IMG/VR virus record: IMGVR_UViG_3300047276_000170
Coordinates: 1-20,734 of that record
Direction: 5' to 3' (one strand)
Length of the DNA: 20,734 bases
Source: a virus
The notes beneath the pieces are model-generated. The model was not told the DNA's origin. It saw nothing but the letters and a program-made list of their open reading frames with translations, and did not search any database. Of this stretch, positions 3,402 through 19,825 are shown piece by piece. Made by a program: the position numbers and the translations under genes. Each line of letters opens with the position of its first letter. Positions within the stretch are counted from its first letter, which is position 1.

Positions 3402-5904
3402 TCTGGTTGCGGTTTCGATCCCGAATCTGATCCAGGGCATCAGCCAGCAGCCGGATGGTCAGCGCGACCCCAGCCAGGGCGAGGTGCAGATCAATGGGGT
3501 GAGCTCTGTTGCTGAGGGTCTGCGCAAGCGTGATGGCAGCAGGGTGTTGGCGAAGGTGAGCGATGTCCCGTTTGGGGATGCGTTCATCCATTCGATCCTG
3601 CGGGATGAGAACGAGGAGTACCTGGCGGTCATTACCAAGACCGGCATCAAGGTGTACGACCTGGCTGGAAATGAGAAGACGGTGAATGCACCGGGTGGGT
3701 ATGGCTATCTGTCCACGGTCACCAGTGCTCGAGATCAGATCCGTGCAACCAGCATTGCGGACTACACCTTTGTGTTGAACACAGCGGTGAAGCCAGCGAT
3801 GGATGCTGCGCTGACACCGACCACGCCACGGCCAGCAGCGCATGAGGCATTGGTGTGGATCAAGGCTGCCAACTACGGCCAGACCTACACGGTGACCTTG
3901 AACGGCACCACGACGGAAGTGAAGACCGCCACTGCTGCGGTGATTGCCTCTGGCACCAGCGTGACGGAGGTGAAGATCAGCGCAGCCGAGATTGCAGAGG
4001 CGATCAAGACGGGTCTTTCCACCGTGAGCGGTGTGACGATCACCCGGTTCGGGTCGGTGTTGTGGTTCACCAGTGCCAGCGCGTTCACGATCGCGGCATC
4101 AGATGCCCGTGCCAATGCAGACATCACCTGCATCACCAACTCGGTGCAGTCGTTCACGGAGCTGCCCACCATTGCACCGAAGGGGTATCTGGTGGAGATC
4201 ACCGGCGATCCGGGCAACAAGTGGGACGGGTATTTCGTTCAGTTCAGGCCCCGTGCTGGGGTTGGCGACTTCGGTGAAGGGGCCTGGATTGAGACGGTTT
4301 CACCTGGCACTGAGTACAAGCTGAACCCAGCCACGATGCCGCAGGTGTTGGTGCGGAAGGCGGACGGCACCTTCCACTTCGGACCCATGGATGGCAGCAC
4401 CGTTGGCACGCTGAAGCTGCCGAAGTGGGGTGAGCGGACGGCTGGTGACTACGAGACAGCCCGTGACCCGAGCTTTGTTGGCAGAGCGATCAACGACATC
4501 TTTGTCTTCCGCAATCGGCTCGGTGTGTTGGCGGATGAGTCGGTGGTGCTCAGCCGTCCTGGTGAGTTCTTCAGCTTCTTCCCGGAGACGGTGACGACCA
4601 CGCTGGATTCAGATCCGATTGATCTGCGAGCCAGTAACAACCGGGTGTCAGTGCTGCGTTACGCGGTGCCGGTGCAGGATCAGCTGATCATCTTCTCGGC
4701 CCAGTACCAATTCCTGCTGAGCGGTGGCGATACAGCACTGACGGCAGCGACGGCACGGATCACGGTGCTCACCAACTACGAGGTGGATGTCCGCGTGCGG
4801 CCGCAGCTGTTGGGTAGCGGGATCATCTTTGTGGAAGCCAACGGTCAGTGGAGCCGACTCCAGGACTTCCGCTTCCGTGGTGCTGGCACTGCGATGGTGG
4901 CCAGCGCTGATGACATCACTGAGCACGTGTCGTCTTACGTGCCGGGTGGTGTTTACAAGATGGCGGTGAACGATGTGGGCGGAAGCCTGTATGCGATCAG
5001 CCAGCAGAAGGGGTATCAGAACCGGGTCTATGTCTACAAGACCCTGATGCGCAGCACGGGGAATGGTGAGCAGCGTGCACAGAGCAGCTGGTCACACTGG
5101 TTATTCGCAGGAGCTGATGAGATCCTGCAGGTGCTGTGTGTACGGGAGACCCTGTACTGCCTGATGCGGTATGGGCAGAAGGTCTACCTGGAGAAGGTGA
5201 GTGCGCAGGATCGTCTGCGTAGCGCTGACGAGGTGTCCTATCCGCTGCTGCTGGATCGGTGTGTGACGACCACCGCGGAGACGCCAGCAGCGTTGCGGAT
5301 GGCGAAGGGTGTCTATGACCCGATCACCCGGAAGACCACGTTCACGCTGCCGTACACGGTGGCTGCGCAGACCCAGGTGTGGGCACCGTTCGCCATGGGT
5401 GATGGGGTGCATTACAGCGCTGGGGTGTTGCTGGGTGAGGTGAGTACCGGCAACACGTTGGTCGCTCGCGGTGATTGGTCAAAGGCTGATGTTTACGCGG
5501 GTGAGCCGTATGAGTTCCGGTATCGCTTCAGCCGGTTCAAGTACATGCAGCAGGCAGGTAGCGGGAAGGTTGCTGCCAACGCTGCTCGCACCCAGGTCAG
5601 GCAAGCCAAGCTCCGGTATCACGAGACCGGGTACTTCCAGGTTCATGTACTGCCCGAGCACCGGGCGGAGGGTGTTTACACCTTTGACAGCACGGTGATG
5701 GCCACCAGGGCCAGCAGTATTGGGGCACCGACTGCAGGCACCACCAACACGGCCCGGTACTACGAGGGTGTGTTCAGCATCCCGGTGATGAGCAAGGGCG
5801 AGCAGTGCATGGTGGAGATCAGGAACACCACGCCACACCCCTGCAAGTTCAGCAGTTGTGAATGGGTTGGAACGATCAGCACCCGTGCGAGGGCAATCCA
5901 ATGA
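3394..5904 (+). CDS. Tail tubular protein B (T7 gp12-like nozzle)
   Basis: This 836-residue protein forms the tubular nozzle of the short tail, below the gp11 ring, and contacts the tail fibres. The N-terminal IPNLIQGISQQP segment is a hallmark of the family (T7 gp12 begins similarly, with GVSQQP). The rest is beta-rich with regularly spaced GDY, FRNRLGVLADE and SRPGEFFSFFP motifs, typical of the propeller and platform domains. A Thr/Ala/Ser-rich beta segment at about residues 150-260 corresponds to an inserted domain in the nozzle. T7 gp12 has 794 residues, so the protein is complete. It starts with TTG behind a strong ribosome site and ends in an ATGA overlap with the next gene, indicating coupled translation. 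Confidence 0.95.
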   Translation: MADLVAVSIPNLIQGISQQPDGQRDPSQGEVQINGVSSVAEGLRKRDGSRVLAKVSDVPFGDAFIHSILRDENEEYLAVITKTGIKVYDLAGNEKTVNAPGGYGYLSTVTSARDQIRATSIADYTFVLNTAVKPAMDAALTPTTPRPAAHEALVWIKAANYGQTYTVTLNGTTTEVKTATAAVIASGTSVTEVKISAAEIAEAIKTGLSTVSGVTITRFGSVLWFTSASAFTIAASDARANADITCITNSVQSFTELPTIAPKGYLVEITGDPGNKWDGYFVQFRPRAGVGDFGEGAWIETVSPGTEYKLNPATMPQVLVRKADGTFHFGPMDGSTVGTLKLPKWGERTAGDYETARDPSFVGRAINDIFVFRNRLGVLADESVVLSRPGEFFSFFPETVTTTLDSDPIDLRASNNRVSVLRYAVPVQDQLIIFSAQYQFLLSGGDTALTAATARITVLTNYEVDVRVRPQLLGSGIIFVEANGQWSRLQDFRFRGAGTAMVASADDITEHVSSYVPGGVYKMAVNDVGGSLYAISQQKGYQNRVYVYKTLMRSTGNGEQRAQSSWSHWLFAGADEILQVLCVRETLYCLMRYGQKVYLEKVSAQDRLRSADEVSYPLLLDRCVTTTAETPAALRMAKGVYDPITRKTTFTLPYTVAAQTQVWAPFAMGDGVHYSAGVLLGEVSTGNTLVARGDWSKADVYAGEPYEFRYRFSRFKYMQQAGSGKVAANAARTQVRQAKLRYHETGYFQVHVLPEHRAEGVYTFDSTVMATRASSIGAPTAGTTNTARYYEGVFSIPVMSKGEQCMVEIRNTTPHPCKFSSCEWVGTISTRARAIQ
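5889..5893 (+). promoter_or_regulatory. Ribosome-binding site choosing the ATG at 5901
   Basis: GAGGG lies 7 bases before the ATG at 5901, which overlaps the tail tube B stop as ATGA. An upstream in-frame ATG at 5862 has no such site and would add 13 residues that only overlap the preceding gene, so 5901 is preferred. Confidence 0.7.
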
Positions 5905-6347
5905 ATCTGGTGGAACCAACAGCTGAGGCTGTTCACTACGTGGCTGAGCACCTGCGTCCAGAGGATGAGCAGGAGGTCTGGCTGAGCCACCACATCCCAG
6001 GCCCTGAGGCAGTTCTCAGCAGCTGGGCAGAGAGTGATCTATGCGCCTGCATCGAGACCGAGGATGGTGTTCCAGCTGGTGTGACGGGTGTGGTGGGTGA
6101 TCGGATCTGGATGCTGGGCACGCCAGAGTTGACGGCCACCAAGGAGAGAAGATTGCACCTGTGCATAAAAGGCCGAGGATGGGTGCAGCACTGCATTGAT
6201 CAGGTGGGGATGCCGCTGGGGAACTACGTGTACGCGAAGAACCGTCCAGCGATTCGATGGCTCAGGTATCTGGGGTTTGAGGTTGGAGTGCCACAGCCGT
6301 ATGGCCCAAGCGCTGCACTGTTTCGTCCGTTCTGGAGGTTGGGCTGA
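5901..6347 (+). CDS. gp13-like protein with a degenerate GNAT acetyltransferase fold
   Basis: This small protein has 148 residues from the preferred start. Residues 66-72 (GDRIWML), 108-114 (NYVYAKN) and 117-126 (AIRWLRYLGF) align by eye with the C-terminal half of T7 gp13 (VWVGNTSHIRFLKTIG), including the N-x-x-x-I-R-x-L pattern that in GNAT enzymes forms the last helix near the acetyl-CoA site. T7 gp13 has 138 residues and is required for normal virion morphogenesis; enzymatic activity has not been the accepted role. Position after gp12 and before gp14 agrees. The classic acetyl-CoA loop (R/Q-x-x-G-x-G/A) is not obvious; KGRGW at 90-94 is the nearest candidate, so catalysis is uncertain. 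A copy of the TGCAC-N2-GTGCA palindrome lies inside the gene. The stop overlaps the next start (TGATG). Confidence 0.75.
   Translation: MNLVEPTAEAVHYVAEHLRPEDEQEVWLSHHIPGPEAVLSSWAESDLCACIETEDGVPAGVTGVVGDRIWMLGTPELTATKERRLHLCIKGRGWVQHCIDQVGMPLGNYVYAKNRPAIRWLRYLGFEVGVPQPYGPSAALFRPFWRLG
6154..6165 (+). repeat. TGCAC-N2-GTGCA inverted repeat, copy 2, inside the gp13-like gene
   Basis: TGCACCTGTGCA here is identical in all 12 bases to copy 1. It lies within coding sequence for residues LHLCI and is followed by an A-rich TAAAA stretch. It is about 180 bases before the gp14-like start. In T7 a late promoter (phi13) lies near gene 13, so its place fits a promoter role, but the upstream and downstream flanks differ from copy 1 except for a purine-rich GAGA-type run just before it. 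Confidence 0.55.
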
Positions 6348-7189
6348 TGGCTTTCGGAATTGATGACCTGATTGGTCTTGGCATTGGTGCTGCGTCCACC
6401 GGGATGAACATCTGGGGCGCCAGCGCCCAGAACGCTGCCCAGAAGCAGGCATACAAGGACGCGATCAAGTTCCAGAAGGCGAATGATGCGTTTGCCAAGT
6501 GGCAGGCCAGATTCAACAAGAAAGCCACTGACGCCCAGAACAAGTTCAACTACTGGGGCCAGGTTGTTAATTACAACCAGAACAAGGCCTACACCAATTC
6601 GCTTCGCAACATCGAGAAGCTGAAGGCGTTCAAGCAGGCGGAGGTTGTCTTCAAGACCAGGGCCGCTGCTGGTGCGAGCTACATCCAGGACAGTGAGGCC
6701 ATCTCCAACGCCTACCAAGAGCAGTCAATGCAGGAGGCGGTGTCCCTGCAGCAGTACCAGTGGCGTGCCGTACAGACCCGTGGAACGGTCCAAGCCATGG
6801 AACGGGAGGGTCAATCGGTTGATCGGATCGTGAATGACTACGCCCGGCAGATGGGTGACTTCGAGGCGCTGCAGCAGATCAACCAGAAGATCCGCACCAG
6901 GCAATACACGCGAGAGCAAGCCGGTCAGGTGGCGCAATACCTGAGTCGTTGGAACAGCCAGACGTTCTACCAGGAGCAGCCGTACATGGATCCGCTGCCG
7001 CCTTATGCACCGTTGCCGACGATCATGATGCCACCGCCACCGTCGATGACGGGTGCACCGCCCAGTGCAACAGCAGGTGCATTGAACATTGGCACCGCGG
7101 TGCTGGGCGGTCTGCAGACGGGGCTGAACGCTTGGCAGATGCTCTCGAAGAGCAATACCCCGTCTTCATCCAGCGGCCCCGGTACTTGA
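6347..7189 (+). CDS. Internal virion protein B (T7 gp14-like)
   Basis: This 280-residue protein is predicted to be largely helical, with many Gln, Ala and Asn residues. It begins with a hydrophobic Gly/Ala-rich segment (residues 8-28, IGLGIGAASTGMNIWGA) followed by long amphipathic helices to about residue 210. It ends with a Pro-rich linker (about 215-240, including MMPPPPS) and a second small Gly/Ala-rich segment. In T7, gp14 is ejected first and forms a pore in the outer membrane; the N-terminal hydrophobic helix suits that role. T7 gp14 is shorter (196 residues), and the Pro-rich tail is extra. The start ATG at 6347 has GGAGG at 6334-6338 and overlaps the preceding stop. Function is inferred from order and composition, not from a catalytic motif. 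Confidence 0.8.
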   Translation: MAFGIDDLIGLGIGAASTGMNIWGASAQNAAQKQAYKDAIKFQKANDAFAKWQARFNKKATDAQNKFNYWGQVVNYNQNKAYTNSLRNIEKLKAFKQAEVVFKTRAAAGASYIQDSEAISNAYQEQSMQEAVSLQQYQWRAVQTRGTVQAMEREGQSVDRIVNDYARQMGDFEALQQINQKIRTRQYTREQAGQVAQYLSRWNSQTFYQEQPYMDPLPPYAPLPTIMMPPPPSMTGAPPSATAGALNIGTAVLGGLQTGLNAWQMLSKSNTPSSSSGPGT

Positions 7190-7192
7190 TCC

Positions 7193-10100
7193 ATGGCAGA
7201 CCGTCTTCCTTATGGGCAGCTCACGCCAGCAGCGCGGCCGATCAATGCGTTCATCTCTCCTGCCCAGACCAACACGCCTGATGCTGCAAGGCCGCAATCG
7301 CTTCAGGCTGACATCAGGATCAACACGATCCAGCGTGCATCTGAAGGCAATGTCCAGGGCTTTAACCAGGCCGAGCAGTTAGCGCAGGCGATTGCACCGT
7401 TCAACCGTGCGTTGACCAGCCTTTTAACCGAGGGTGCTGTTGCGTTGAAGAACAGCTCGATCGAGGCTGGCTACTACGACGAGCTGAAGAATCAACAGGC
7501 TCGCGGGATGTTGAGCCTGCAGATGCAGCAGGAGGCAGGTGCTGCCAATGCTGCTGGGCAGATCAGCCAGCTGGAGAAGATTGATCCGCCTGGTGCTGCG
7601 ATGCTGCGCGAGGCCAACCCATGGAAGGCGATCGGTCGACGGCGTGCGCTGGCGCAGCTTGCTGGCGGTGACATCGACAACGTGCTGTCTGCTGATCTGC
7701 AGCAGAACCAGGGCGAGCTGGCAACAGTTCAGCCGGGCAGTGGGGTTCTGTCACAGCGCAAGAGTGCTCTCACCCAGATTGTCCTGGATCGTTATGGGCT
7801 GACGGGTGATGAGATCGAGGTCGCTGCCTATGTAGCGCCGAAGGTCAACCAAGCCTGGGACAAGTACACCGAGAAGCAGCAGAAGCTCTACAACGAGACA
7901 CTGCGGATCAACGGCAGAGCGCAGACCACGGCGGCCCTGGGTCAGGCACTGCAGCAGATGTCAGAGAACGGCATCCCCCTTGCCAATGGTGAGGTGGTGC
8001 CAATGGGTGACCCGCGGTTTGCGCAGCTGGCAGGCCGTGTGATGACCGGGATGATCGACCGGTCACTGACCTTCTCTGGTGGGCAGGACCGTGCTGATGA
8101 CCTGAAGGAGATCCGCACGCAGCTGCTGGGCACGTTTGGTCAGGTGCCGGTGCTGGGTGATGCACTGGGGTTTGTTGAAGGTGGCAACCCTGGTGATGCC
8201 AACCGTCCGACCTGGGGTGCCAGCTACGGGCTGGAGATCCTTGAGACCCGCAACCGTGGCAACTCAGCCCGGCAGCAGCAGTACGAGCTGGGGCAGAAGG
8301 CTGTTGAGCAACAGCTCGATGGGTTGTGGTGGGCTGAGGGTTCACCGGGTTCGATGTTGCCCACCGATCCGAACTACGCGGCAGCGCTGATCAACTTCAG
8401 GAACAAGGCAGCAGCAGCTGGTTATCGGGACATCGACGGCTACATGAAGGGCCGGATGGATTCGCAGGAGTCCGTTGTTGAGCGTGCCTACGCCCCGGAT
8501 CCACTGGCATCTGAAGACTTCCTGACCACGATTCAGGACCTGCCCCGTTCAGCGATGAACACACCGGAAGCGGTGCAGGCATTGCGTGAGCAGGCCAGGG
8601 CTGCAGCGAAGGCTGAGCCCACTCCTGAGCTGCAGCGTGCCCGCTACAAGGAGTACCTGGACGCGATCACGGCCAAGCAGAAGCAGGCACAAGACACCAC
8701 CCCTGGCCTGCAGTCAGCGATTGACAAGGCACTGCTGCAGGACCTGAGCCTGCCGCAGGTGAAGCCGCTTGTGGATGCAGCCAAGGCCAAGTCCGGTGGT
8801 GGTGATGCGTTCACTGCTGCCCTGCAGGGTGGTGCTGGTGCGATGGCTGCAGCCAGTGGGTTGGGCAACGCGAAGGTGACAGCGTTCACTCAGCGGTTGA
8901 ACAACCTGTTCCTGCGAAACGCTGAAGCAAAGATCGACGCATGGATGGCTGAGCGTCCTGGTGTGCCGCTGACCAGCAGTGCCAGGAACGTGTTGATCAG
9001 TGAGGCGATTGCGGAGACCAGGAAGAGCGAGGAGTACAAGCAGGCGTTCCAATCCCTGACGGGCAAAGCACCGGGCGAGGTGGGTGTGGGGAAGGTTGGG
9101 ACTGGCCCTGCGCAAGGCACCGCACCAGGTCCGGCTGTCAGGGGTGTGGCCCGTACTGCAGCAGCAGCGTTGCCTGACACCACGGTGAAGGGCTTTGCTG
9201 TTCGCCCTGTGATGAACGGTGACTGGCTGCACTCAGAGCTGTCTCAGCTCAGCAATGGCAAGCCGGTGAGTGCTGAGCTGTATCGCCTGGCCAATCGAGC
9301 TGGCACCACCACCAACCGGTATTTGCTCGAGCAGCTGCGCTTCTATCCCCAGCTGGATCCAAACGGTGAAGCACGCAAGTTCCTCGAGCAGAAGGTGCGT
9401 CAGCAGCGTCAGGGCCAGACGGTCAGTGGTGCCAACTGGCAGAGCATGAGCCGTGGCACTGGGATGGGGATGGTGCCGACTGGGTACAACCCGCTGGCAC
9501 CCGGCAGCTGGCTGATGAACATGCTGATGCCACCTGCTGCTGCAGCCACCCTGCCACCTGGGTTTGCGTCTGGTTATGGCGGCGGTGACGGGAACTATGT
9601 GGCGACCACTGGGTTCGGTTACTCCGCTGACCGCAAGACCCAAACGCTGCATGGCATCAAGGGTCGCCCTGGGTATGACGCCAACCATGGTGTGGGCAAT
9701 GACCACGTTCACCACGGTGCCAATGACCCGCAGACGGCGATGGCATTGGCGAAGTACCTGAAGGCGAAGGGCTGGCCGATCACGGAGTTCAAGCCATGGG
9801 GTCGAGTGGGTCAGCACCAAGACCCTGGCCATTACGACGGCCGCACCTTTGACATCCCGGTTGCAACCAAGGATCACGCCAAGGTGTTGTCTGACATCAA
9901 CGCCTTCTATGCAGGCCGTAGTGGTAGCGGTGTCCGCGGGACACCCGCTGGTTACCTGAAGCGCCTGGCGTATCTCGAGAGCCGGATCCGCAACGTGCCA
10001 AATGCTGAGGGTTCACCGGGCCGTGGGTACTTCCAGGCCTTCCCTGCCTTCAGCTCTGAAGCCATTGCTGCATCGGGTGGCATTGATCCTCGAGATGCCA

Positions 10101-10294
10101 ACTACGACCGCTCAGCCAAGGCCACATGGGCCTGGATCCAGAAGCACAACGAGCGAGCTGCTGCAGCAATCAAGGCGGGTCGGTACGACGAGGCCGACCG
10201 CCTGCTGCGCAATACCTGGCCATCACTACCGGGTGGCAGCCAAGCCCAGCCCGATCACGTTCAACGCGAAGCCCGCCGCTACCTCGGAGGTTGA
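7193..10294 (+). CDS. Large internal virion/ejection protein (gp15 position) with C-terminal peptidoglycan-degrading modules
   Basis: This protein has 1033 residues. Residues 1 to about 760 are helical, Gln/Ala-rich and lack enzyme motifs, as in T7-like internal core proteins. A short hydrophobic Pro/Ala segment (772-786, SWLMNMLMPPAAAAT) leads to two C-terminal modules. Module one, about 800-905, has DHVHHG (837-842), H875 and G-H-Y-D-G-R-T-F-D-I (879-888), matching the H-x-x-G-x-x-x-D-I metal-site pattern of M15-type D,D-peptidases. Module two, about 915-1033, has a lysozyme-like candidate Glu929 in AYLESR, GYFQ at 945-948, and IKAGR...WPSLPGG ending at 1015. That end resembles the tail of lambda-R-type transglycosylases (WASLPG). 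It probably opens the cell wall during DNA ejection. The ATG at 7193 follows the previous stop by 3 bases without a clear ribosome site. The domain calls were made by eye. Confidence 0.8.
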   Translation: MADRLPYGQLTPAARPINAFISPAQTNTPDAARPQSLQADIRINTIQRASEGNVQGFNQAEQLAQAIAPFNRALTSLLTEGAVALKNSSIEAGYYDELKNQQARGMLSLQMQQEAGAANAAGQISQLEKIDPPGAAMLREANPWKAIGRRRALAQLAGGDIDNVLSADLQQNQGELATVQPGSGVLSQRKSALTQIVLDRYGLTGDEIEVAAYVAPKVNQAWDKYTEKQQKLYNETLRINGRAQTTAALGQALQQMSENGIPLANGEVVPMGDPRFAQLAGRVMTGMIDRSLTFSGGQDRADDLKEIRTQLLGTFGQVPVLGDALGFVEGGNPGDANRPTWGASYGLEILETRNRGNSARQQQYELGQKAVEQQLDGLWWAEGSPGSMLPTDPNYAAALINFRNKAAAAGYRDIDGYMKGRMDSQESVVERAYAPDPLASEDFLTTIQDLPRSAMNTPEAVQALREQARAAAKAEPTPELQRARYKEYLDAITAKQKQAQDTTPGLQSAIDKALLQDLSLPQVKPLVDAAKAKSGGGDAFTAALQGGAGAMAAASGLGNAKVTAFTQRLNNLFLRNAEAKIDAWMAERPGVPLTSSARNVLISEAIAETRKSEEYKQAFQSLTGKAPGEVGVGKVGTGPAQGTAPGPAVRGVARTAAAALPDTTVKGFAVRPVMNGDWLHSELSQLSNGKPVSAELYRLANRAGTTTNRYLLEQLRFYPQLDPNGEARKFLEQKVRQQRQGQTVSGANWQSMSRGTGMGMVPTGYNPLAPGSWLMNMLMPPAAAATLPPGFASGYGGGDGNYVATTGFGYSADRKTQTLHGIKGRPGYDANHGVGNDHVHHGANDPQTAMALAKYLKAKGWPITEFKPWGRVGQHQDPGHYDGRTFDIPVATKDHAKVLSDINAFYAGRSGSGVRGTPAGYLKRLAYLESRIRNVPNAEGSPGRGYFQAFPAFSSEAIAASGGIDPRDANYDRSAKATWAWIQKHNERAAAAIKAGRYDEADRLLRNTWPSLPGGSQAQPDHVQREARRYLGG

Positions 10295-10297
10295 CCC

Positions 10298-13081
10298 ATG
10301 CCTGCTTTCAACCTTGCACCGAAGCCCGAGGACCTTGACCCGCAGTGGGACAACAAGGCACCACAGACATTGGGTGATGGCACCAAGAAGCCAACAGTGG
10401 GTCAGTCCAGGGCGTTGTATGCCCAGCGATCGGAGGCAGCTGCTGGCCCGCTGAAGCCGGTGGTGCAGTTCGCCAATGCACTGGCCAGCCCTGACACCAA
10501 GATCGGCATCTTCACTGGTCCGATCAACGGGATCTCAAAGCTGGGCAATGCACTGGGTGACCTGGTGCAGGGCAAGCCGATTGATGTGAAGGATGCCTGG
10601 ACGATCAGCGATCAACAGGCACGTGCCATCAACCCATGGCGGGTTGGCATTGGCCAGGAGGTGACCCCTTCTGACGTGGCTGGTCTGGCGATCGGTGAAG
10701 GGATCGGTGCTGAGCTGGCTGGTGCTGCCACTGGTGCGACGTTGCTGCAGCAGGCGGCAAAGATCCGCAGGGTGCAGCAGGCAGCGCAGGCGTTCCAGCA
10801 GCAGGCAGCAGTGCGCCGTGCTGCGGTGGCGATCACGGCCAGTCCGAAGCTGAAGGCTGCCACCAATGTGGCTACGCATGTTGGCGAAGCACTGGGCAGC
10901 ACGATGCTGTCCACGCCGTTCCTGGATCAGGCAGACGGGAACCTGGCGAATGTGGGTGATGCGGTTGGGCTGAAGCTGCCCGGCCGTGTCGAGCCAGACG
11001 AGAACTACCTGCAGTCACTGGCCAAGTCAGTGGCGGTGGAGGGGATCGCTGCCCCGCTGGCGCTGCTGGGAATGGGTGCATTGATCAAGCCCATCCGTGA
11101 GGGGATGACCAAGGGTGGACCGGGGTGGATTGAAGAGCTGGCCAATGCAGAGCTCGAGCCATACCTGCCACGGCAGATGGCTGGTCCTGCTCTGCCACCT
11201 GCTGCAGATGTCCCTGCTCTGCCTGGTTACAGCCAGCAGGGTGGTGCGTTGGTGCCTTACGACTCTGCGATCACCCGCTCACTGCAGGAGCAAACGCAGG
11301 TCAAGCAGGTGACGCAGCAGCGCCAGCGGCTGCAGGACATGGGCCTGGTGCAGCAGGGGGAAGGCGGTCAGCTGGATCTGTCCCTTGGTGGTGCGGTTGA
11401 TCCTGAGATCCGGTTGCAGGTGCGACAGCTGCAGACGCAGCGCGGTCTGCTGATCAAGCAGGGGATGGAGTCTGGTCAGGACATGACAGGTGACCTGGCA
11501 AAGATCGACCAGGAGATTGGTGATCTGATCCAGAGCGGCAGCAGTGCTGACTTCATGCCAGCTGAGCGTCCTGTCCAGCCGGAGCTTGATCTACCTGATG
11601 GCCGGCCAGAGCTCGATAGCTTCCTCGCTCACCTGGATGAGATGGGTGATGCCGACCTGCGGCAGATCCACAGCCGGGTGTATGCGGACATCAATGCAGA
11701 GCGCAATGCACAGGAACTGACCAACGCACAGCAGCAGGTGCAAGCGTTGCAGGACCAGCTGGCCAGCATTGATCAGCGGCTGGCCGCTGGTGAGATCAAG
11801 CCGATGGGTGCCAAGCGCATGATCGGCAAGGTGCAGAAGGAGCTGGCCCTAGCGCAGCAGCAGGTGGAGACGATCAATGCACGTGGCCGGGTGCCTGAGG
11901 CATTGGTCGGTGATCAGCTGCAGCTGCGCATTGATCAGCAGGGGCAGCTGGATCTCTCCCCTGAAGTGAAGCTGCCACCGATTGAACAGGTGACACGGAC
12001 CGCCAGTGAGTACGGCTACCAGACACCGGATGACTACCGCTCTGCACTGGGCGGGTGGAACCGTGATCAGCTGCGCAGGTTGGCGATGCCTGATTCCAGC
12101 CCTGAGGTAGCAGCACTGGTGAAGGCACGCACTGGCCGGCCGATTCCCTTGGCCAAGAAGGAGGACATCATTGATGCCTTGGTGGAGATGGCAGAGCGGC
12201 GTGGTCGCTTCCTGCCACCGGAGCCTGAGCAGTTGGCGCTCGAGCTGAAGGCAAACAAGTTCGGTGATGCTGCACCGCTGTTCGATCGTCCTGCTGATCT
12301 CTCTGCCCCTGGCATGACCAAGGTGCTGGATGCTGATGGCGTTGAGCAGCTGGTGCCAGCAACGGATTACAGCGGTCGCGGCATGGATCCTCAAACCCGT
12401 GAGCGGTTGAAGGCTGAGATCCTGCAGCGTGCGATCGACAACGGTGAGGTGCAGCCACCGGTCAGCCCGTTGCCGCAGCGGCCGACTACCACGTTTGAGC
12501 AGGCCTCGTTGGTGGATGACCTGTTTGCCGACCCCACCGGGCAACTGCCGCTGGCCTTCTCCACTGATGCGTTGCCCACGTACAAGGCAGGTGGAAAGAA
12601 CGCTGATGCGTTGATCGAGGAGATGCGTCTGCGGTTTGAGTACAACCTGCTGGATGAGCAGGCACAACGTGCACAGCAGCAAGCGCTGATGGCAGCGCAT
12701 GGTTGGGACACGTTGCCGTGGGAAGAGAAGAAGAAGCTGGGGATCCTGGGTGAAGGGTTCTACAGCCTGCAGCGTCATGAGTTCGCTGGTGCTGTTGATC
12801 GTCTGCGGCAACCGACTGCGCAGTTCAACCCAGAGCTGGAGGTGGTGCCACCACGCAAGCCCAAGCAATACGGGATGGAAGGTGGTGAGCTGGTGGAGAA
12901 AGCACCAGAGGTGAAGCCCACACCGGCAGAGGCCGCGGCGGCCAAGAAGGAACAAGCTGCTGCAGCAAGGGCCGTCAAGGCAGAAGCTGCAGCGCAGAAC
13001 AAGGGCATCGCCAAGATGCGAGAAGCCCTGCTTAAGCAACGGGAGGAACTCCTCCGTCAATCCCAAGGAGCGAAGTGCTGA
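10298..13081 (+). CDS. Large internal virion protein, 927 residues, no known enzymatic domain
   Basis: This protein probably belongs to the ejected inner core, since it lies between two other giant internal proteins in a translation-coupled block. The N-terminal 280 residues contain Gly/Ala-rich hydrophobic stretches (about 125-150 and 240-265) that could insert in membranes. From about 330 to 560 it is Gln/Leu-rich with heptad-like spacing, a likely coiled coil. Around 567-635, W587-NRDQLRRLA followed by KKEDIIDALVE (620-630) looks like a SAP/HeH helix-extension-helix, often a nucleic-acid-binding element. The last 60 residues are Ala/Lys/Glu helix. GGAGG at 10286-10290 supports the ATG at 10298. 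It has no clear T7 counterpart by itself; it could be the front part of a gp16-like protein split in two. I do not recognise a specific function. Confidence 0.65.
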   Translation: MPAFNLAPKPEDLDPQWDNKAPQTLGDGTKKPTVGQSRALYAQRSEAAAGPLKPVVQFANALASPDTKIGIFTGPINGISKLGNALGDLVQGKPIDVKDAWTISDQQARAINPWRVGIGQEVTPSDVAGLAIGEGIGAELAGAATGATLLQQAAKIRRVQQAAQAFQQQAAVRRAAVAITASPKLKAATNVATHVGEALGSTMLSTPFLDQADGNLANVGDAVGLKLPGRVEPDENYLQSLAKSVAVEGIAAPLALLGMGALIKPIREGMTKGGPGWIEELANAELEPYLPRQMAGPALPPAADVPALPGYSQQGGALVPYDSAITRSLQEQTQVKQVTQQRQRLQDMGLVQQGEGGQLDLSLGGAVDPEIRLQVRQLQTQRGLLIKQGMESGQDMTGDLAKIDQEIGDLIQSGSSADFMPAERPVQPELDLPDGRPELDSFLAHLDEMGDADLRQIHSRVYADINAERNAQELTNAQQQVQALQDQLASIDQRLAAGEIKPMGAKRMIGKVQKELALAQQQVETINARGRVPEALVGDQLQLRIDQQGQLDLSPEVKLPPIEQVTRTASEYGYQTPDDYRSALGGWNRDQLRRLAMPDSSPEVAALVKARTGRPIPLAKKEDIIDALVEMAERRGRFLPPEPEQLALELKANKFGDAAPLFDRPADLSAPGMTKVLDADGVEQLVPATDYSGRGMDPQTRERLKAEILQRAIDNGEVQPPVSPLPQRPTTTFEQASLVDDLFADPTGQLPLAFSTDALPTYKAGGKNADALIEEMRLRFEYNLLDEQAQRAQQQALMAAHGWDTLPWEEKKKLGILGEGFYSLQRHEFAGAVDRLRQPTAQFNPELEVVPPRKPKQYGMEGGELVEKAPEVKPTPAEAAAAKKEQAAAARAVKAEAAAQNKGIAKMREALLKQREELLRQSQGAKC
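13065..13070 (+). promoter_or_regulatory. Ribosome-binding site choosing the ATG at 13081
   Basis: AAGGAG lies 10 bases before the ATG at 13081 but only 4 bases before the in-frame GTG at 13075. The ATG forms the same TGATG stop-start overlap as the gp13/gp14 junction, so it is the preferred start. Confidence 0.65.
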
Positions 13082-16000
13082 TGGCTAGCTGCAACGACCT
13101 CGCTGAAGAGCTGCGTCGGATTGACGCTGAACTTGAAGCTCTCGACTCCACCCAGCGTGGACTGAACGCGCAAGCAGCACTTGCCGATGGTCAGCCCAAG
13201 GGCAAGCCAAAGGTGCTCAAGACCTACACCGGTGATGAGGTGACCCTCGACCCCGGCAAGTGGGTGACCGAGGCGGAGATGGACGCCATGCAGATGGGCG
13301 ATGAAACCGTCCGTCAGATGGTGTCAGCTGGGTTCCAAGGCAACCGGACACCGAACGGTCGCACCGGTCGGATGGTGAACTACAGCCAGATCGACCCCAG
13401 CCAGGAGAACATCGCCCTGCTGCTGGAGGTGATGGGGCTCAAGCGTGCCAGCACCGACAAGGGTGTGGAGCTACGCCGGCCGTTCACCAACCAGGCTGCA
13501 GCTAAGGCGCTGATGGCCATGGCGCAGAAGGAAGGTGCTGACCCTCGAGCGGTGGCCGAGGCATTGCAGAAGCGGGTGAAGGGAATCGACAACCTGCCCA
13601 GCGCGGTCTATGCCGCAGCGAAGGCGAAGTGGGATGCAGCCAGCCAGTACACCGACGTGCTCGAGGAGCTGGCCGATGCCATGGACGGTGGCTTCCTCAC
13701 CGATGAGCTGAAGCACCAGGCCGGCAACGCTGCGAAGTGGGCGCACTTCTATGAGCAGCTGGATGCACAGGTGCGGCGGCGTGTCGGCCAGGCACTGAAG
13801 TCCATGCAGTTCAAGCAGGACGCTGAGATCACCCTGGTGGATGTGGGCAAGGACATCCAGGACCTGACGCTGGATGACATCACCGGCAACAGCCTGGTCG
13901 GTGACATGTTGAAGGTGGTGGCTGAGGGCAACGCCAAGGCGCTGCGGCAGATGGCTGCAGCCAAGCGTGCGGACCAGGCACTGGGCCTGAATCAGCCTGG
14001 GTTCTTCCGTGACCTGAGCCTGCTGAACAGCTTGCGGCGGGCAAACCTGTTGTCCTCGTTTGCGACCTGGGCTGTTCGTAACCCGCTGTCGGGTGCGCTG
14101 GTGCAGGGCATCTACATGACCGAAGACATGGTGTCCGGCAGCTTGCGCCTTGCTGCGAAGAACGGGATCAGAGCTGGTGTGGCTGATGAGCTGAAGGCTG
14201 CTGGCTTTGCTGGCCGCGCTTTCGTCGATGCGTTCGGCATGAGCTGGGGCAACTTCAAGGAGGCGTTGTCCACCGGCAAGACAACGGTGGCGACTGACTC
14301 ACTGAAGTACGTGGATTCAGTCGATGAGATGCGCAGCTCCAAGGCCATCGTCAACGCTGCTTTTGATTCCGCATGGGAGGACATCACCAGCTGGAAGGGT
14401 CTGGCCAATCCGGTGTCGGTCCTCAACTTCATCAACGGCGGGTTCTGGAAAGTCTTCGGCGGTGGCGTTGAACGACTGACCGGATCCGATGCGGGATACA
14501 TGGCACCGTTCCGCATCCTGAACGCAACGGATGACTTCATGCAGACGCAAGCGTTTGCGTGGAAGAGCAGCCATGAAGCGTTCGTTCGTGCTGCTGAGGA
14601 GGGCAGAGCAGCAGGTCAAGGTGCGGAGTGGATCGAGCGGCGTGCTGATGAGCTGGCCAGCAAGTCGATGTTCAGCGGTGTCTTCACCGATGACGAGCTG
14701 GTCCAGTACCGCAAGGCGCGGAACGCGGAGTTCGGCATCCCGGTTGGAGGAGACATCGACGATGACGAGCTGCGGGCCATGCTCTACAACCAGCTGAAGG
14801 GTGTGCCCAACACCGAGTCAGAGCTGGGCCGGCTGTCTCTTGATCGTGCAAAGAACAGCACCTTCACCGGTGAGGTGACGGGCATGGCCGCACCGTTCGT
14901 GAACGGTGTGCAGCAGATGCGATCCAATCCGTTCATGGCATGGGCACTGCCGTTCTGGAAGGTGCCGATCAACGGAATCGGCTGGGTGTTGAACCGCGAT
15001 GTAATCCTTGCAGTACCCAAGCAACTGCTGATGGAAGGTCAGCAGCTGATGGGCAAGGGTCAGAAGTTCACGGTGGAGGAGATGGCTGATGCCAGGGCCC
15101 GCACTGCAGTGGCAGTTGCAATCGCTGGCATGACCCACGTGATGTGGGAGAACGGGTTCTTCACTGATGGTGGATCGTTTGATCCTCGTCAGCGGGAACG
15201 TGAGCGCAGGAACTGGAAGCCCTACAGCTTCAGCCTGGCCGGCACGTTGGCTGAGGCGACCAAGTTCCAAGGCAGCTCGATCGACGTGATCGACCTGATG
15301 GGTCTGCACGCTGATGTCCTTCGCGCCTACCACGACGGCGTGATGACGTGGAAGGAAGGCGAGGTGAACATGGTCCCGATCCTGGTGGCCTACGGCAACC
15401 TGATCAAGAACAAGGCAGCGCTGAAGAACATCACCAGCATCATGAACTGGATGCAGGACCCACAGCGTTACGACTTCGGTCGGGTGCTGGGTGATCAGAT
15501 GGGTGGCCTGCTGCCCCTCAGTGGTTTCGGTGGGACCATCTCTCGTTCCTTCTCTGATGCAGAGGAGATGATGGCGAAGCGGCGGATGCTGTCAGCCAAC
15601 GAGGTGGCAGCACTGAAGAACGATCCGAACTACAAGCTGATCCAGCCAGTGATCAACGCGCTGCAGTCAGCAGGTGATGCGTTCGTGAAGGGCAACGCTG
15701 GCATCCTCGGTGGGCTGCTGCCACGGGAGAAGGACTGGCTGGGCAACAGCATCCAGCGACCGCTGGGTCTGCCGGTGGATCTGACCATCCCGTTCATGCC
15801 AGTGATCAAGCCACAGGATCAGCTGTATCAGTGGCTGGAGAAGCATGGCTTTGGAGATAAGCCACGGCCTGACGGCACCTTTGAGATGGGTGGTGCCAAG
15901 GTCCAGATGAGCAATGAGGAGGAGGACTTCTACCGGGAAGAGATGAGGACGGTGCGGGGTGAGATCCCACCGGAGGCGATCGGTCAATCCGCTGGTCGCC

Positions 16001-16353
16001 TGATGCCGATCTGGCAGTACGTGCAGGGCCAGGACCTGGCGGGTGCACTGCGGAATCTGATGCGTGATCCGAAGTACAACCAGCTACTGGATGATCCGAC
16101 CGGGGGTGTCAGCCCGAGCCTGGCAGTGCAGCAGGGCAAGAGCCTGGCTGAGCGGAAGCAGTCAGGCGGCGGCAAGCTCTACGCCCCAGTCGATGACATC
16201 ATCAACTACTACGACCGGCTGGCATTGATGAAGCTGCTGAGCAACCAGCAGTTTGATTTCCGCCAGCGCTATCAAGCAGTGCTCAGGCAGAAGCAGGTTG
16301 GGTTGCAGCAGTATGCGGAGAGCATTAACGGACTAGGGGTGTCTCGCCAATAG
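13081..16353 (+). CDS. Giant internal virion/ejection protein (gp16 position), polyvalent-protein-like
   Basis: This protein has 1090 residues and is the last and largest of the internal-protein block, immediately before the fibre gene, as gp16 is in T7 (1318 residues). It is mostly helical. Residues 624-631 (PFWKVPIN) match the PF-x-x-T/V-P-x-N motif that recurs in C-terminal regions of phage large polyvalent and internal virion proteins, just before a hydrophobic segment. Further hydrophobic stretches occur near 320-350 and 675-695. Unlike T7 gp16, the N-terminus has no transglycosylase signature; that activity seems to sit on the 1033-residue protein. An alternative GTG start at 13075 would add two residues. 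T7 gp16 forms part of the periplasmic and inner-membrane channel for DNA entry, and this is the inferred role here. Confidence 0.75.
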   Translation: MASCNDLAEELRRIDAELEALDSTQRGLNAQAALADGQPKGKPKVLKTYTGDEVTLDPGKWVTEAEMDAMQMGDETVRQMVSAGFQGNRTPNGRTGRMVNYSQIDPSQENIALLLEVMGLKRASTDKGVELRRPFTNQAAAKALMAMAQKEGADPRAVAEALQKRVKGIDNLPSAVYAAAKAKWDAASQYTDVLEELADAMDGGFLTDELKHQAGNAAKWAHFYEQLDAQVRRRVGQALKSMQFKQDAEITLVDVGKDIQDLTLDDITGNSLVGDMLKVVAEGNAKALRQMAAAKRADQALGLNQPGFFRDLSLLNSLRRANLLSSFATWAVRNPLSGALVQGIYMTEDMVSGSLRLAAKNGIRAGVADELKAAGFAGRAFVDAFGMSWGNFKEALSTGKTTVATDSLKYVDSVDEMRSSKAIVNAAFDSAWEDITSWKGLANPVSVLNFINGGFWKVFGGGVERLTGSDAGYMAPFRILNATDDFMQTQAFAWKSSHEAFVRAAEEGRAAGQGAEWIERRADELASKSMFSGVFTDDELVQYRKARNAEFGIPVGGDIDDDELRAMLYNQLKGVPNTESELGRLSLDRAKNSTFTGEVTGMAAPFVNGVQQMRSNPFMAWALPFWKVPINGIGWVLNRDVILAVPKQLLMEGQQLMGKGQKFTVEEMADARARTAVAVAIAGMTHVMWENGFFTDGGSFDPRQRERERRNWKPYSFSLAGTLAEATKFQGSSIDVIDLMGLHADVLRAYHDGVMTWKEGEVNMVPILVAYGNLIKNKAALKNITSIMNWMQDPQRYDFGRVLGDQMGGLLPLSGFGGTISRSFSDAEEMMAKRRMLSANEVAALKNDPNYKLIQPVINALQSAGDAFVKGNAGILGGLLPREKDWLGNSIQRPLGLPVDLTIPFMPVIKPQDQLYQWLEKHGFGDKPRPDGTFEMGGAKVQMSNEEEDFYREEMRTVRGEIPPEAIGQSAGRLMPIWQYVQGQDLAGALRNLMRDPKYNQLLDDPTGGVSPSLAVQQGKSLAERKQSGGGKLYAPVDDIINYYDRLALMKLLSNQQFDFRQRYQAVLRQKQVGLQQYAESINGLGVSRQ

Positions 16354-16395: not shown

Positions 16396-17328
16396 ATGGC
16401 GATCCCTACCCCCTACTCCTACCGCCAGTACACAGGGGATGGGACTGCCAAGACCTTCAGTGTCCCGTTCCCGTACCTGGCCAGGGCTCACGTCCACTTG
16501 TGCCTGGACAGCAAGGAGCTGAAGGACGGGACGGACTTCAACTGGACCAGCGGCACACAGGTGCAGCTAACCATTGCTCCCCAGGCACCAGTCACTGGCA
16601 CCACGCCCAAACCAGCTGAGGTACTGACGGTCCGGCGTATCACGCCAGAAGACAGTCAGATCGTCCAGTGGAAAGACGGCAGCTACATCATTGCTGCGGA
16701 TCTGAATGAATCTGATCTGCAGTGGCTGTACCTGATCCAGGAACACCACGACTGGTTGATTCGCCAGGAGAACAACCTTGGGGCATTGCCTGGTGGGGGT
16801 GGCAGCACAGGTGCTGTCAGCCAGTACTGGAACAAGCTGGCGCGGCACCTGGACCCAGCCAAGGACACGGCCAATGAGAAGGCCAATGTCGTTGACACCA
16901 AGGACCAGAAAACACCTGATGCCACTGGCCTGAAGTCTGCTGGCTGGATTGCTGATGACGACCACATCGCCACCACGGGTGCGCTGAGTGAGCGGTATGA
17001 CGTTTACGTCCAAGACACCAAGCCACCGGATCCCCCGATCACGGAGGTGCGTCAGCCAGGGAAGATCTGGATTGATGATGGGGTTCTGCAGATCAATTAC
17101 TGGGAGCCCACGGCCAAGGCCTGGGTGAACCTGGCCAGCACTGGCCCCGAGGGTCCGGCTGGCCCTGCAGGCCCTCAGGGGCCAACAGGTGCAACAGGGC
17201 CAGTCGGTCCCGCCGGTGCACCTGGTCCTGCTGGAACGTACTTGGCGGAAACGCCAATCATTCTGGCTGCAACTGGTTCAACGACCACTATCAAGTTCGA
17301 CCCCATTCCTCTACCCACTCTTCCCTGA
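16396..17328 (+). CDS. Tail fibre protein with T7 gp17-type N-domain and collagen-like stalk
   Basis: This protein has 310 residues. Residues 1 to about 135 are the T7 tail-fibre N-terminal domain that docks on the nozzle: YTGDGTAKTFSVPFPYL near the start, then DLNESDLQWLYLIQEHHD leading to a Gly-rich linker (GALPGGGGS). The middle part (170-245) carries a short PGKIWIDDG...YW-type beta segment. Residues 250-282 are eleven consecutive Gly-x-y triplets, a collagen-like trimeric stalk. Only about 28 residues follow, so the receptor-binding tip is missing from this chain and must come from partner proteins encoded downstream. It is much shorter than T7 gp17 (553 residues). The stop is a lone TGA, in frame with the next gene, which starts 3 bases later. 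It probably acts as the adaptor half of a multi-protein fibre. Confidence 0.9.
   Translation: MAIPTPYSYRQYTGDGTAKTFSVPFPYLARAHVHLCLDSKELKDGTDFNWTSGTQVQLTIAPQAPVTGTTPKPAEVLTVRRITPEDSQIVQWKDGSYIIAADLNESDLQWLYLIQEHHDWLIRQENNLGALPGGGGSTGAVSQYWNKLARHLDPAKDTANEKANVVDTKDQKTPDATGLKSAGWIADDDHIATTGALSERYDVYVQDTKPPDPPITEVRQPGKIWIDDGVLQINYWEPTAKAWVNLASTGPEGPAGPAGPQGPTGATGPVGPAGAPGPAGTYLAETPIILAATGSTTTIKFDPIPLPTLP
17143..17241 (+). repeat. Collagen-like Gly-x-y repeat (11 triplets)
   Basis: Eleven uninterrupted Gly-x-y codon triplets lie near the end of the fibre adaptor gene, with Pro commonly second and Ala, Gln, Thr, Val or Glu filling other positions. Such segments form trimeric stalks in phage fibres and are hot spots for length change by recombination. 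Confidence 0.9.
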
Positions 17329-17331
17329 GTC

Positions 17332-18435
17332 ATGGCTGTTCAATCCACTGATCTGCTGGTCGTTAATCGTTCCGGCACGAACTACAAGGTCTCGTGGCAG
17401 ACCTTAAAAGCTGACACCGCTTACACCCTTCCCAACGCTGCTGCTGCCGTCCTTGGTGGCGTCAAGGTTGGCACCAATCTGTCGATTGACTCTGGCGGTG
17501 TTCTATCTGCCAACCTGCCTGGCGCCCTGATTTACAGGGGCACCACTGATCTGACGGGTACACCTCCTGGCACCAAGGTTTCTGGCGATGTCTACGTCAA
17601 CCGCAAAGCTGGCACGATCAACGGTGCTTGGACTGGCCTGAGCGGCACCGCCACTGTTGGCGAGATGGTGCTGTGGGATGGCACCAAATGGGACATCGTT
17701 GGCAACGGTGGTGCTGCTGGCGTCACCAGGGTGACCGGCACTGCTCCTGTTGTTGTTGGTGGCACTGCCCAGCAACCAGACATCACCGTCAGTGCTGCCA
17801 CCACTACCGCGGCAGGTCTGCTCAGTGCCGCTGACAAGACCAAGCTGGATGGCATCGCAGCTGGTGCAGCTGCTGGCACCGTCACCACGGTCACAGCCAG
17901 CTCACCGCTTCACGTCACAACGCCGACCACAACACCGGCGCTGAGCATTGATGACGCCACCACCGCTGCAAAAGGCGTGGTGCAACTGGCGGATGCAGCG
18001 GCTGTCACAGCTGGTACGGCTGGCCTAGTCGTAACAGCTGATCAGCTCAAAACCACCAACGATGCAATCGCCACAGCAGCAGGCGGCGGCATCACCACGT
18101 TGACTCCAACTGCACCGATCACGGTGACAGCTGGTGCTAACGCTCAGACCAAGGTGATTGGCGTTGGTACTGCCACTAATGCAGCGACAGGTGTGCTGCG
18201 TCTGGCAACAGATGCTGAGGCCACTGCTGGCACCTTGGAAACCGTTGCGGTTAATCCCAAGCAACTGGCCAGCAAAACTATTGCGCAGGCCACCAGGACC
18301 GTTGCAGGCAAGGCTGAGATCGCCACTGAAAGCGAGATCACTGCTGGCACAGATGACACCCGGTTCATTTCTCCGCTGGGTGCCAAGACCACGTTGATGC
18401 CATACGACATCAGCACTCTGACTGTCCTGCCCTGA
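17332..18435 (+). CDS. Repeat-rich tail fibre/stalk protein
   Basis: This 367-residue, Thr/Ala/Gly-rich protein has no charged catalytic sites. It opens with one copy of a short module (residues 4-21, QSTDLLVVNRSGTNYK-type) that recurs three times in the next gene. Residues 34-61 have the VLGGVKVGTNLSID phage-tail repeat. About 67-125 has a GDVYVN...WTG...GEMVLWDGTKW module. AGLLSAADKTKLDGIAAG (about 163-180) and three AKGVVQLAD / TGVLRLATD / AGKAEIATE repeats (about 209-350) are typical of trimeric phage fibres. The start ATG lies in the same frame as the preceding fibre gene, separated only by TGA-GTC, and has no ribosome site, so expression by coupled re-initiation or stop read-through is likely. 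It probably extends the adaptor stalk. Confidence 0.8.
   Translation: MAVQSTDLLVVNRSGTNYKVSWQTLKADTAYTLPNAAAAVLGGVKVGTNLSIDSGGVLSANLPGALIYRGTTDLTGTPPGTKVSGDVYVNRKAGTINGAWTGLSGTATVGEMVLWDGTKWDIVGNGGAAGVTRVTGTAPVVVGGTAQQPDITVSAATTTAAGLLSAADKTKLDGIAAGAAAGTVTTVTASSPLHVTTPTTTPALSIDDATTAAKGVVQLADAAAVTAGTAGLVVTADQLKTTNDAIATAAGGGITTLTPTAPITVTAGANAQTKVIGVGTATNAATGVLRLATDAEATAGTLETVAVNPKQLASKTIAQATRTVAGKAEIATESEITAGTDDTRFISPLGAKTTLMPYDISTLTVLP
17341..17394 (+). repeat. 18-residue fibre module, copy 1
   Basis: This stretch encodes QSTDLLVVNRSGTNYKVS, which aligns without gaps to three copies in the following gene. The consensus is Q-x-T/G-D-L/V-L/F-V/I-V-x-R followed by K/S-V/I/A-S/T eight positions later. 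Confidence 0.75.
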
Positions 18436-18454
18436 GCCAAGCGCCTGATCACCA

Positions 18455-19825
18455 ATGACCGTTCAGAACACTGACGTTTTTGTTGTTAGCCGTGGCGGCA
18501 CGCTGCACTCGGTGACTGCCGCCAATGCCAACGGCAAGATTCAGGACACTGACCTGTTGGTGGTCAGGCGTGGTACAACCACTTACAAGATCACGGGGAA
18601 GGTATTTAAGGCTGCTGCCTTTCAAGACGGTGACCTGTTCATCGTTAATCGGAACCACAAAAGCTATAAGGCCACAGGAGCTGTTGTTAAAGCCATCCTG
18701 CAGAAGGCACCGATCATTCAGGTGGTGACCTTAGCTGAGGATGATGCAGCAGGTGCAGCGTTCACCAGTCAATCGTTCACCGCAACGATCACGATGACGG
18801 AACCGGGTATGCCGGTTGCTACGCATAACCTCAAGGCATGGGTGGAGGGGACGCTTAACGGCGTTGCCGGTGCCCGCCTGTACCTGAAGTTCAACGCTGC
18901 TGGTGCAGTGTCTGACCTGCAATCAGCTGATCCTGGGTGGGTGCAGACGACGGATCAGGCCACACCAAAGCTGACGTTTCCTGCCACGCTTCCGTCAGGC
19001 AAGAAGCCGGATGAGGAGCTACCTGCTGGCACCACGATCACCGTGGAAGCACAGGCCACCAACGCAGCAGGTACGGTCACAAAGGTGAGCAACATCATTG
19101 TTCCCAGTAGGCCAGCTCCGCCGAAGCCTGGTGATGCAATGGGTGGTGGATTCTTCGCCGGTCAGATCAATGATGGCGGCGTGATTTATAACTTGATTGT
19201 TGCCCCAAAAGTCAGCGGCACGCTTCATGGAGAAATAAGCAAGATTGCGTGGGGCACGTCAACAAGAGCACTTAATGGTGTTTACATAAACAAGCACGAT
19301 GGCCGCGTCGGGATGGGAGACGCGAATCGCAAGGCTAACTACGCTGGCCAATACCCACTTATCGAGTGGGTAGAAACAAATCCAACAGGACCGAACAAGG
19401 GTCATTGGGATCCGACGAATAGTGTTGGCACAGGCATAGGAGGCTTCAATGATTGGTACATTCCTTCTGTCTACGAGGCTTTCATTGTGTTCTTTGGCTT
19501 GAAGGGGCAATCGGCTGCTAACAGTACTTCCACTGCATTGGCGGAGCTTGGTGCGAACGGCACCAATCCGTATTCTGTTGCGCCATACACGCCTAACACG
19601 CCATTCACGGCTACATTGCCCGGAGTAACAACGGTCCCTGCGTTTATCACTGGTAGCGGCGCAGAGGCGTTCCCTAACTACTTTGAAATGTGGACCAGCA
19701 CAGAGTGCGATCCAGGCAACAAGGACAGCGCGTACTTCATCAGCATGTGGGATGGCGATATGCACCGCTCACAGAAGACGGCCTCAAACAGAGGCGCCCG
19801 CGCCATCCGCCGTGTACCCGCTTAA
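18455..19825 (+). CDS. Tail fibre protein with C-type-lectin/DUF1566-like receptor-binding tip
   Basis: This protein has 456 residues. The first 75 contain three copies of an 18-residue module (4-21, 30-47, 57-74) like the start of the preceding gene. Residues about 88-220 form an Ig-like beta domain (SFTATITMTEPG, TITVEAQATNAAGT), followed by a Pro linker near 222-232. Residues 238-456 resemble the DUF1566/Lcl, FGE-type C-type-lectin fold: GGVIYN (241-246), WGTST, GFNDWYIPS (330-338), WTSTE (413-417), then K-x5-RGARAIRRV at the end. This fold is used as a ligand-binding head in many phage and bacterial adhesins, so it is a likely host-receptor tip. G+C falls to about 51% in 19201-19560 by hand count, against 62-65% in sampled internal-gene segments, suggesting acquisition by exchange. 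No clear ribosome site precedes the ATG. Confidence 0.8.
   Translation: MTVQNTDVFVVSRGGTLHSVTAANANGKIQDTDLLVVRRGTTTYKITGKVFKAAAFQDGDLFIVNRNHKSYKATGAVVKAILQKAPIIQVVTLAEDDAAGAAFTSQSFTATITMTEPGMPVATHNLKAWVEGTLNGVAGARLYLKFNAAGAVSDLQSADPGWVQTTDQATPKLTFPATLPSGKKPDEELPAGTTITVEAQATNAAGTVTKVSNIIVPSRPAPPKPGDAMGGGFFAGQINDGGVIYNLIVAPKVSGTLHGEISKIAWGTSTRALNGVYINKHDGRVGMGDANRKANYAGQYPLIEWVETNPTGPNKGHWDPTNSVGTGIGGFNDWYIPSVYEAFIVFFGLKGQSAANSTSTALAELGANGTNPYSVAPYTPNTPFTATLPGVTTVPAFITGSGAEAFPNYFEMWTSTECDPGNKDSAYFISMWDGDMHRSQKTASNRGARAIRRVPA
18464..18676 (+). repeat. 18-residue fibre module, copies 2 to 4
   Basis: Three in-frame copies lie at 18464-18517, 18542-18595 and 18623-18676, spaced 26 and 27 codons apart. 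They encode QNTDVFVVSR, QDTDLLVVRR and QDGDLFIVNR starts. The DNA copies have diverged, so selection appears to act on the protein, not on the nucleotide repeat. Confidence 0.75.

Follow-up and report, generated by a model that had tools for sequence, protein, structure and literature searches.

In phage T7 the ejection protein gp16 carries a wall-cutting domain of the SLT family at its N-terminus; in other phages such a domain lies at the C-terminus of the protein in the gp15 position. Experimental precedents are phiKMV gp36 and SP6 gp36, both with a C-terminal virion lysozyme that in the case of phiKMV is active in vitro (PMC5380687), and in the PhiM1 OEP a C-terminal lysozyme at the gp15 position has been seen by cryo-EM (PMC11440229). 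Domain swapping between ejection proteins was already described in a 2022 review (PMC8954989). SP6 gp36 and K1-5 gp38 consist of a body of ~770 aa followed by a C-terminal lytic domain, and a lysozyme-like C-terminal domain is also present at the gp15 position in Syn5 gp44, P60, S-CBP42 and SS120-1. This Syn5-type domain resembles Phage_lysozyme2 below the cut-off. No lysozyme-like domain was found in P-SSP7 gp15.

The DNA analysed here (the window) is a partial, 20,734-base virus record containing a T7-like morphogenesis block, and derives from a T7-like phage whose host is probably a cyanobacterium. A major capsid protein, tail tube genes and gp12-, gp13- and gp14-like genes (the gp13-like gene at 5862-6347 and the gp14-like gene, a weak match, at 6347-7189) lie upstream of a plus-strand ORF at 7193..10294 that encodes a protein of 1033 aa, here called A. 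The gene next to it encodes protein B (10298..13081, +, 927 aa) and is followed by that of protein C (13075..16353, +, 1092 aa), after which come the fibre genes. Where T7 has two large genes at this place (gp15 and gp16), the window lineage has three. A comprises a body of about 790 residues, followed by two modules in the last ~235 residues; H875, H880, D887, E929, G945-Q948 and W1009-G1015, from which a sequence-only reading of this DNA had assigned an M15-like and a lysozyme-like site, are all found at these positions of the ORF.

Gene position and the order of body and lytic domain are the same in A as in SP6 gp36 and K1-5 gp38. Their cargo is one T4-type domain (Phage_lysozyme, PF00959) whereas A has a second module, and neither body nor enzyme shows detectable sequence similarity to A. 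phiKMV and PhiM1 likewise carry a single domain where A carries two modules and, in contrast to B and C, the gp16 equivalent of PhiM1 bears an additional, endolysin-like domain. The Syn5-type proteins resemble A in having their lysozyme-like domain at this position but lack module 1, and no relationship of their domain to module 2 could be detected. The sequence-only reading was right about the contrast with T7, but this was already known from SP6, K1-5, phiKMV, PhiM1 and the Syn5-type cyanophages, and these precedents largely bear out the lineage trait which that reading had named as the outcome that would count against it. Its observation was thus largely right, its interpretation half right, and the order it described is not new. 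What is new is the tandem pair, the combinatorial cargo, a module 1 that fits no known class and the conservation of a hydrophobic-PAxA junction.

The assignment of A to the gp15 position is based on gene order together with a weak link to Syn5 gp44. The order gp14 - A - gp16 is satisfied, with gp13- and gp14-like genes upstream and C, which resembles the C-terminal part of Syn5 gp45, downstream, B lying in between. No sequence similarity of A to T7 gp15 was found (hhalign E 0.34), which lowers the assignment only a little because gp15-like proteins are mostly paired by size and synteny (PMC8954989). A phmmer search of the whole of A against the PDB returned noise, and A, B, C and their C-terminal pieces matched no significant family in Pfam, PHROGs or NCBIfam; this silence is weak evidence, since Pfam also misses phiKMV gp36, a proven lysozyme. 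The body (residues 1-771; 7193..9505, +) is common to cargo-less relatives and can be aligned with an ejection-region protein of S-SRP02 (ORF45, SSRP02_p045; 42% identity), which carries a different lysozyme-like cargo, and with MedDCM phage proteins (27-32%). Residues 668-785 match between the bodies of two deep clades of relatives (hhalign 97.6%), the last ~115 residues being the part of the body best kept between them.

No lytic domain was detected in B or C with Pfam, PHROGs or NCBIfam. Together the two occupy the place of T7 gp16. B matches nothing beyond its own clade and shows no similarity to gp16. C aligns with residues 996-1341 of Syn5 gp45 (hhalign 97.4%, E 1.4e-11) and weakly with P-SSP7 gp16 and with internal virion protein D of Roseobacter phage CRP-114. 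Judged from these matches, B is either an additional protein or one that has split off, and the gp16-like protein, C, lies one gene further on, so that the earlier claim of a gp16-position protein free of enzymes stands as regards the domains but had been attached to B, which is not gp16-like, rather than to C. The size of B varies in relatives from about 930 to 1500 aa, and in MedDCM S31-C1 (L026, 14426-18880) a 1484 aa protein replaces it, with a PHROG match to 'portal protein' over residues 521-813 (E 7e-35).

Module 2 (residues 921-1033; 9953..10291, +) contains E929, GYFQ at 945-948 and WPSLPGG at 1009-1015, and has homologs at 31 viral loci with 61-87% identity. E929 is invariant in 13 sequences, and comparison of independent contigs shows little or no variation at H880, D887, E929, GYFQ and the greater part of WPSLPGG. 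Pfam and NCBIfam gave no significant match to this module, and its profile found nothing in the PDB. Alignment by hhalign of 21 module 2 homologs with five endolysins including lambda R gave a probability of 93.9% (E 1.6e-7, score 47), compared with scores of at most 21.3 for 60 column shuffles and 13 for the reversed profile; no comparable score was obtained with the lysozyme cargos of SP6, Syn5, phiKMV or S-SRP02 or with the T7 transglycosylase. The confidently aligned block pairs TWPSLPGG of module 2 with IWASLPGA. Outside this block GYFQ corresponds to GRYQ, and YLKRLAYLE929 can be matched by eye with FLDMLAWSE, the Glu of which we take to be catalytic in lambda R. With a permissive threshold, tblastn against a phage collection gave 81 weak matches, and every named entry among the 20 that were listed is an endolysin, a lysin or a lysozyme. 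This stretch is also weakly matched by phrog_90, an endolysin family of PHROGs. An AlphaFold model of both modules together had a mean pLDDT of 62 and weak fold matches, the best for module 2, too weak when taken alone, being a Ralstonia chitinase and a Thermotoga endo-N-acetylglucosaminidase (Z 6.2), both of the lysozyme superfamily. On the profile evidence module 2 is a divergent relative of the phage lambda R lysozyme, of the lysozyme/lytic transglycosylase kind, and is predicted to cleave glycan. The lysozyme-like half of the original proposal is upheld by these comparisons.

Module 1 (residues 798-906; 9584..9910, +) is separated from module 2 by a Gly/Ser-rich linker (residues 907-920; 9911..9952, +), where pairwise identity drops to its minimum within the cargo region (46-62%). 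Among the relatives compared module 1 was found solely at the end of A proteins, and a scan of genome contigs gave one short match that is probably spurious. Its homologs are 63-93% identical, with D837, H838, H840, H841, H875, H880 and D887 invariant; these residues together with E865 and D877 make up a set of conserved positions of the kind found in metal sites. Module 1 matched nothing in Pfam, PHROGs or NCBIfam, direct searches with the M15 models PF08291 and PF13539 found nothing in the window, and hhalign gave no significant alignment with 11 phage M15 peptidases. Structure prediction, which for both models drew on alignments of little depth (9 and 25 rows), gave module 1 a mean pLDDT of 80, exceeding 90 in part of the core, and a ferredoxin-like core whose best fold match (Z 6.8, 55 residues, rmsd 1.9) is a designed protein. 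No LAS or M15 chain is among the fold matches listed, and such searches handle permutations poorly. Module 1, which was assigned to M15 from its motifs and its company, matched no M15 profile or fold and is not filed as M15 here. A role of H875 as zinc ligand is improbable, D837-x-x-H840 together with H880-x6-D887 forming a better candidate set, and the module is described as a putative metallopeptidase that may be an LAS domain in circular permutation. Of the combined peptidase and glycosidase proposed earlier, the glycosidase half is thus well supported, and the peptidase half is plausible by motif and company.

Among relatives, the wall enzymes at the C-terminus of A are interchangeable, which makes this end of the protein a cargo site. 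In the MedDCM phages S38-C3, S37-C6 and S31-C1 (L024, L025 and L026) the homologs of A stop with the body at 785-818 aa and carry no enzyme. Module 1 is the sole cargo in L037 and L049, and in L036 and L039/L040 it is accompanied by a DPBB lytic transglycosylase (PF03330, above cut-off, E 6e-7 and 8e-11). Modules 1 and 2 occur together in phages like that of the window, module 2 is the sole cargo in the second deep clade (L007-L022 and others), and S-SRP02 carries yet another lysozyme-like domain, one weakly linked to lambda R. In trees of gp12, gp13 and gp14, module 2 and the combination of module 1 with DPBB each occur in both deep clades; the cargo combinations cut across the tail-gene trees, and the modules have therefore been repeatedly gained, lost or exchanged. 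This free variation supports, in kind, the suggestion that ejection proteins have swapped their enzymatic cargo. A moved gene boundary, the other explanation offered by the sequence-only reading, is rejected, because the cargo-less homologs end where the body ends and the cargo has therefore been appended to A, with nothing taken from the front of B.

Module 2 (61-66% identity) also occurs inside proteins of 1726-1872 aa in L074, L075, L076, L078 and L080, at about 5001-5354 of these loci (4290-4643 in L075), and size and PHROG matches suggest that these are tape-measure proteins. There it directly follows a peptidase, of the M23 type in L074 and L078 and of the NlpC/P60 type in L075. Since L074 and L075 closely resemble each other elsewhere, the peptidase has been exchanged while the lysozyme next to it stayed constant. 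The same enzyme module thus appears to move between the ejection proteins of short-tailed phages and long tape-measure-like proteins, and one, perhaps two, enzyme modules have been overlooked by Pfam and NCBIfam.

The junction between body and cargo (residues 772-786, SWLMNMLMPPAAAAT; 9506..9550, +) consists of a hydrophobic stretch followed by PPAAAA. A hydrophobic stretch with AxA, mostly PAxA, marks this border in nearly all cargo-bearing relatives, S-SRP02 ORF45 sharing PPAAAAT with A, and was not found close to the ends of the cargo-less homologs. Similar junctions are present in SP6 (FLMSPAFAS, at about residues 716-728 of gp36) and K1-5 (FLMSSAFAS), where the hydrophobic-PAFA/SAFA sequence resembles that of A; none was found ahead of the cargo in Syn5 or phiKMV. 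The junction could serve as a linker, as a helix that associates with membranes or as the target of a protease, and as these regions are alanine-rich, the likeness could partly reflect composition. In these distant phages it resembles a signal peptidase I site. The question of a protease site is worth asking because P22 gp20 may require cleavage by a host enzyme (PMC8954989). A combined scheme, in which a host protease cuts a junction of the signal peptidase I type upon entry of the tunnel protein into the envelope and frees the wall enzymes in the periplasm, and in which module 1 is a new circularly permuted zinc-peptidase family of the cargo slot, strikes us as a long shot.

We consider it likely, with a probability of about 80%, that residues ~798-1033 form an exchangeable peptidoglycan-hydrolase cassette at the C-terminus of a tunnel-forming ejection protein, serving entry through the cell wall. 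A would travel in the phage head, reach the periplasm through the tail during ejection and assemble there into a tunnel to which the C-terminal cargo is tethered by a flexible linker. In the periplasm the glycan strand would then be cut by module 2 and the peptide stems by module 1, probably a zinc peptidase, allowing the tunnel to cross the wall. The location in the virion, the function in entry and the activity of module 1 are what we infer in this scheme. The end of the podovirus tunnel protein would on this account be a dock where phages mix and match wall-cutting enzymes, the window representing a tandem of a predicted glycosidase and a putative peptidase in phages that probably infect cyanobacteria.

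Within this reading the role of module 1 admits two tentative alternatives. It could bind the wall or a metal and so hold the lysozyme in position, module 2 alone doing the cutting, and both the missing M15 or LAS family or fold match and the ferredoxin-like predicted core are compatible with this. We regard it as possible but less likely than not, and several features speak against it: the conserved positions are His, Asp and Glu of the metal-site kind, the neighbour of module 2 elsewhere is a true peptidase (M23 or NlpC/P60), and in L037 and L049 module 1 stands alone with no lysozyme to position. The other is a refinement of the peptidase assignment, in which module 1 is a circularly permuted zinc peptidase of the LAS/M15/hedgehog type. 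The LAS-type motifs HxxGxAxD and (D/E)xxH are present and invariant with the right spacings but in reversed order, DHVH at 837-840 preceding HYDGRTFD at 880-887, so that DxxH (D837-H840), normally C-terminal, comes before HxxGxxxD (H880-G883-D887); the four ligand or base residues are all invariant, and the L037 and L049 proteins stop a short way past D887, too early to accommodate a third ligand in the normal place. A PDB profile search gave weak matches to the hedgehog N-domain (E 0.08-1.3) in which H880 and D887 are paired with the residues of HYxGRxxDI and, separately and in swapped order, DHVH with NHVHV, but noise from the RuBisCO small subunit scored equally well or better, and exceeded hedgehog when half-domains were searched. 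Profiles of LAS enzymes, single or doubled in tandem, aligned with module 1 by hhalign no better than noise, and the fold searches, poor as they are with permutations, returned no LAS fold. The permutation is kept as a conjecture that is possible but less likely than not.

The use and the history of the cassette have also been read in other ways. An endolysin fused to a virion protein for host lysis at the end of infection, and not for entry, would agree with the publication of S-SRP02 ORF45 as an N-acetylmuramoyl-L-alanine amidase and probable lysis gene (PMC8790148), and no separate endolysin gene was seen within the partial record. The record is only 20.7 kb, however, and a lysis gene may lie outside it, while the domain is fused to a body of ~790 aa encoded after a gp14-like and before a gp16-like gene. 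This arrangement recurs in SP6 and phiKMV, whose equivalent proteins are enzymes associated with the virion; we therefore judge a role in lysis very improbable. Recent horizontal transfer, rather than conservation, could account for a cassette that is 86-91% identical in amino acids to that of L002 when residues 201-700 of A are 27-41% and C 37% identical, and for the 69-77% identity of module 2 in phages with ~35% identity in the capsid protein. The fourfold sites speak against it. Their identity to L002 in the cassette (0.52-0.59) is like that in gp10 (0.56) and B (0.50), and to L007 and L019 it is 0.30-0.36, near chance (0.27) and hence saturated. Recent transfer thus appears unlikely, and the synonymous sites look like those of old cassette exchanges under strong purifying selection.

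The S-SRP02 protein ORF45 corresponds to L023 12001-14907 (MW822601 32903-35809) and belongs to the ejection proteins of the gp15 position, its C-terminal domain being lysozyme-like. A role in entry is likelier than one in lysis, and the amidase annotation probably misleads; the published reading as a lysis amidase would be corrected accordingly. In the fibre region of the window, a fibre-like protein (16396-17328) contains a GPxGPx collagen-like stretch close to its end, and two adjoining genes (17332-19825) start with repeats of VQxTDxxVVxRxGTxxxxV, of which the second has ~3 copies.
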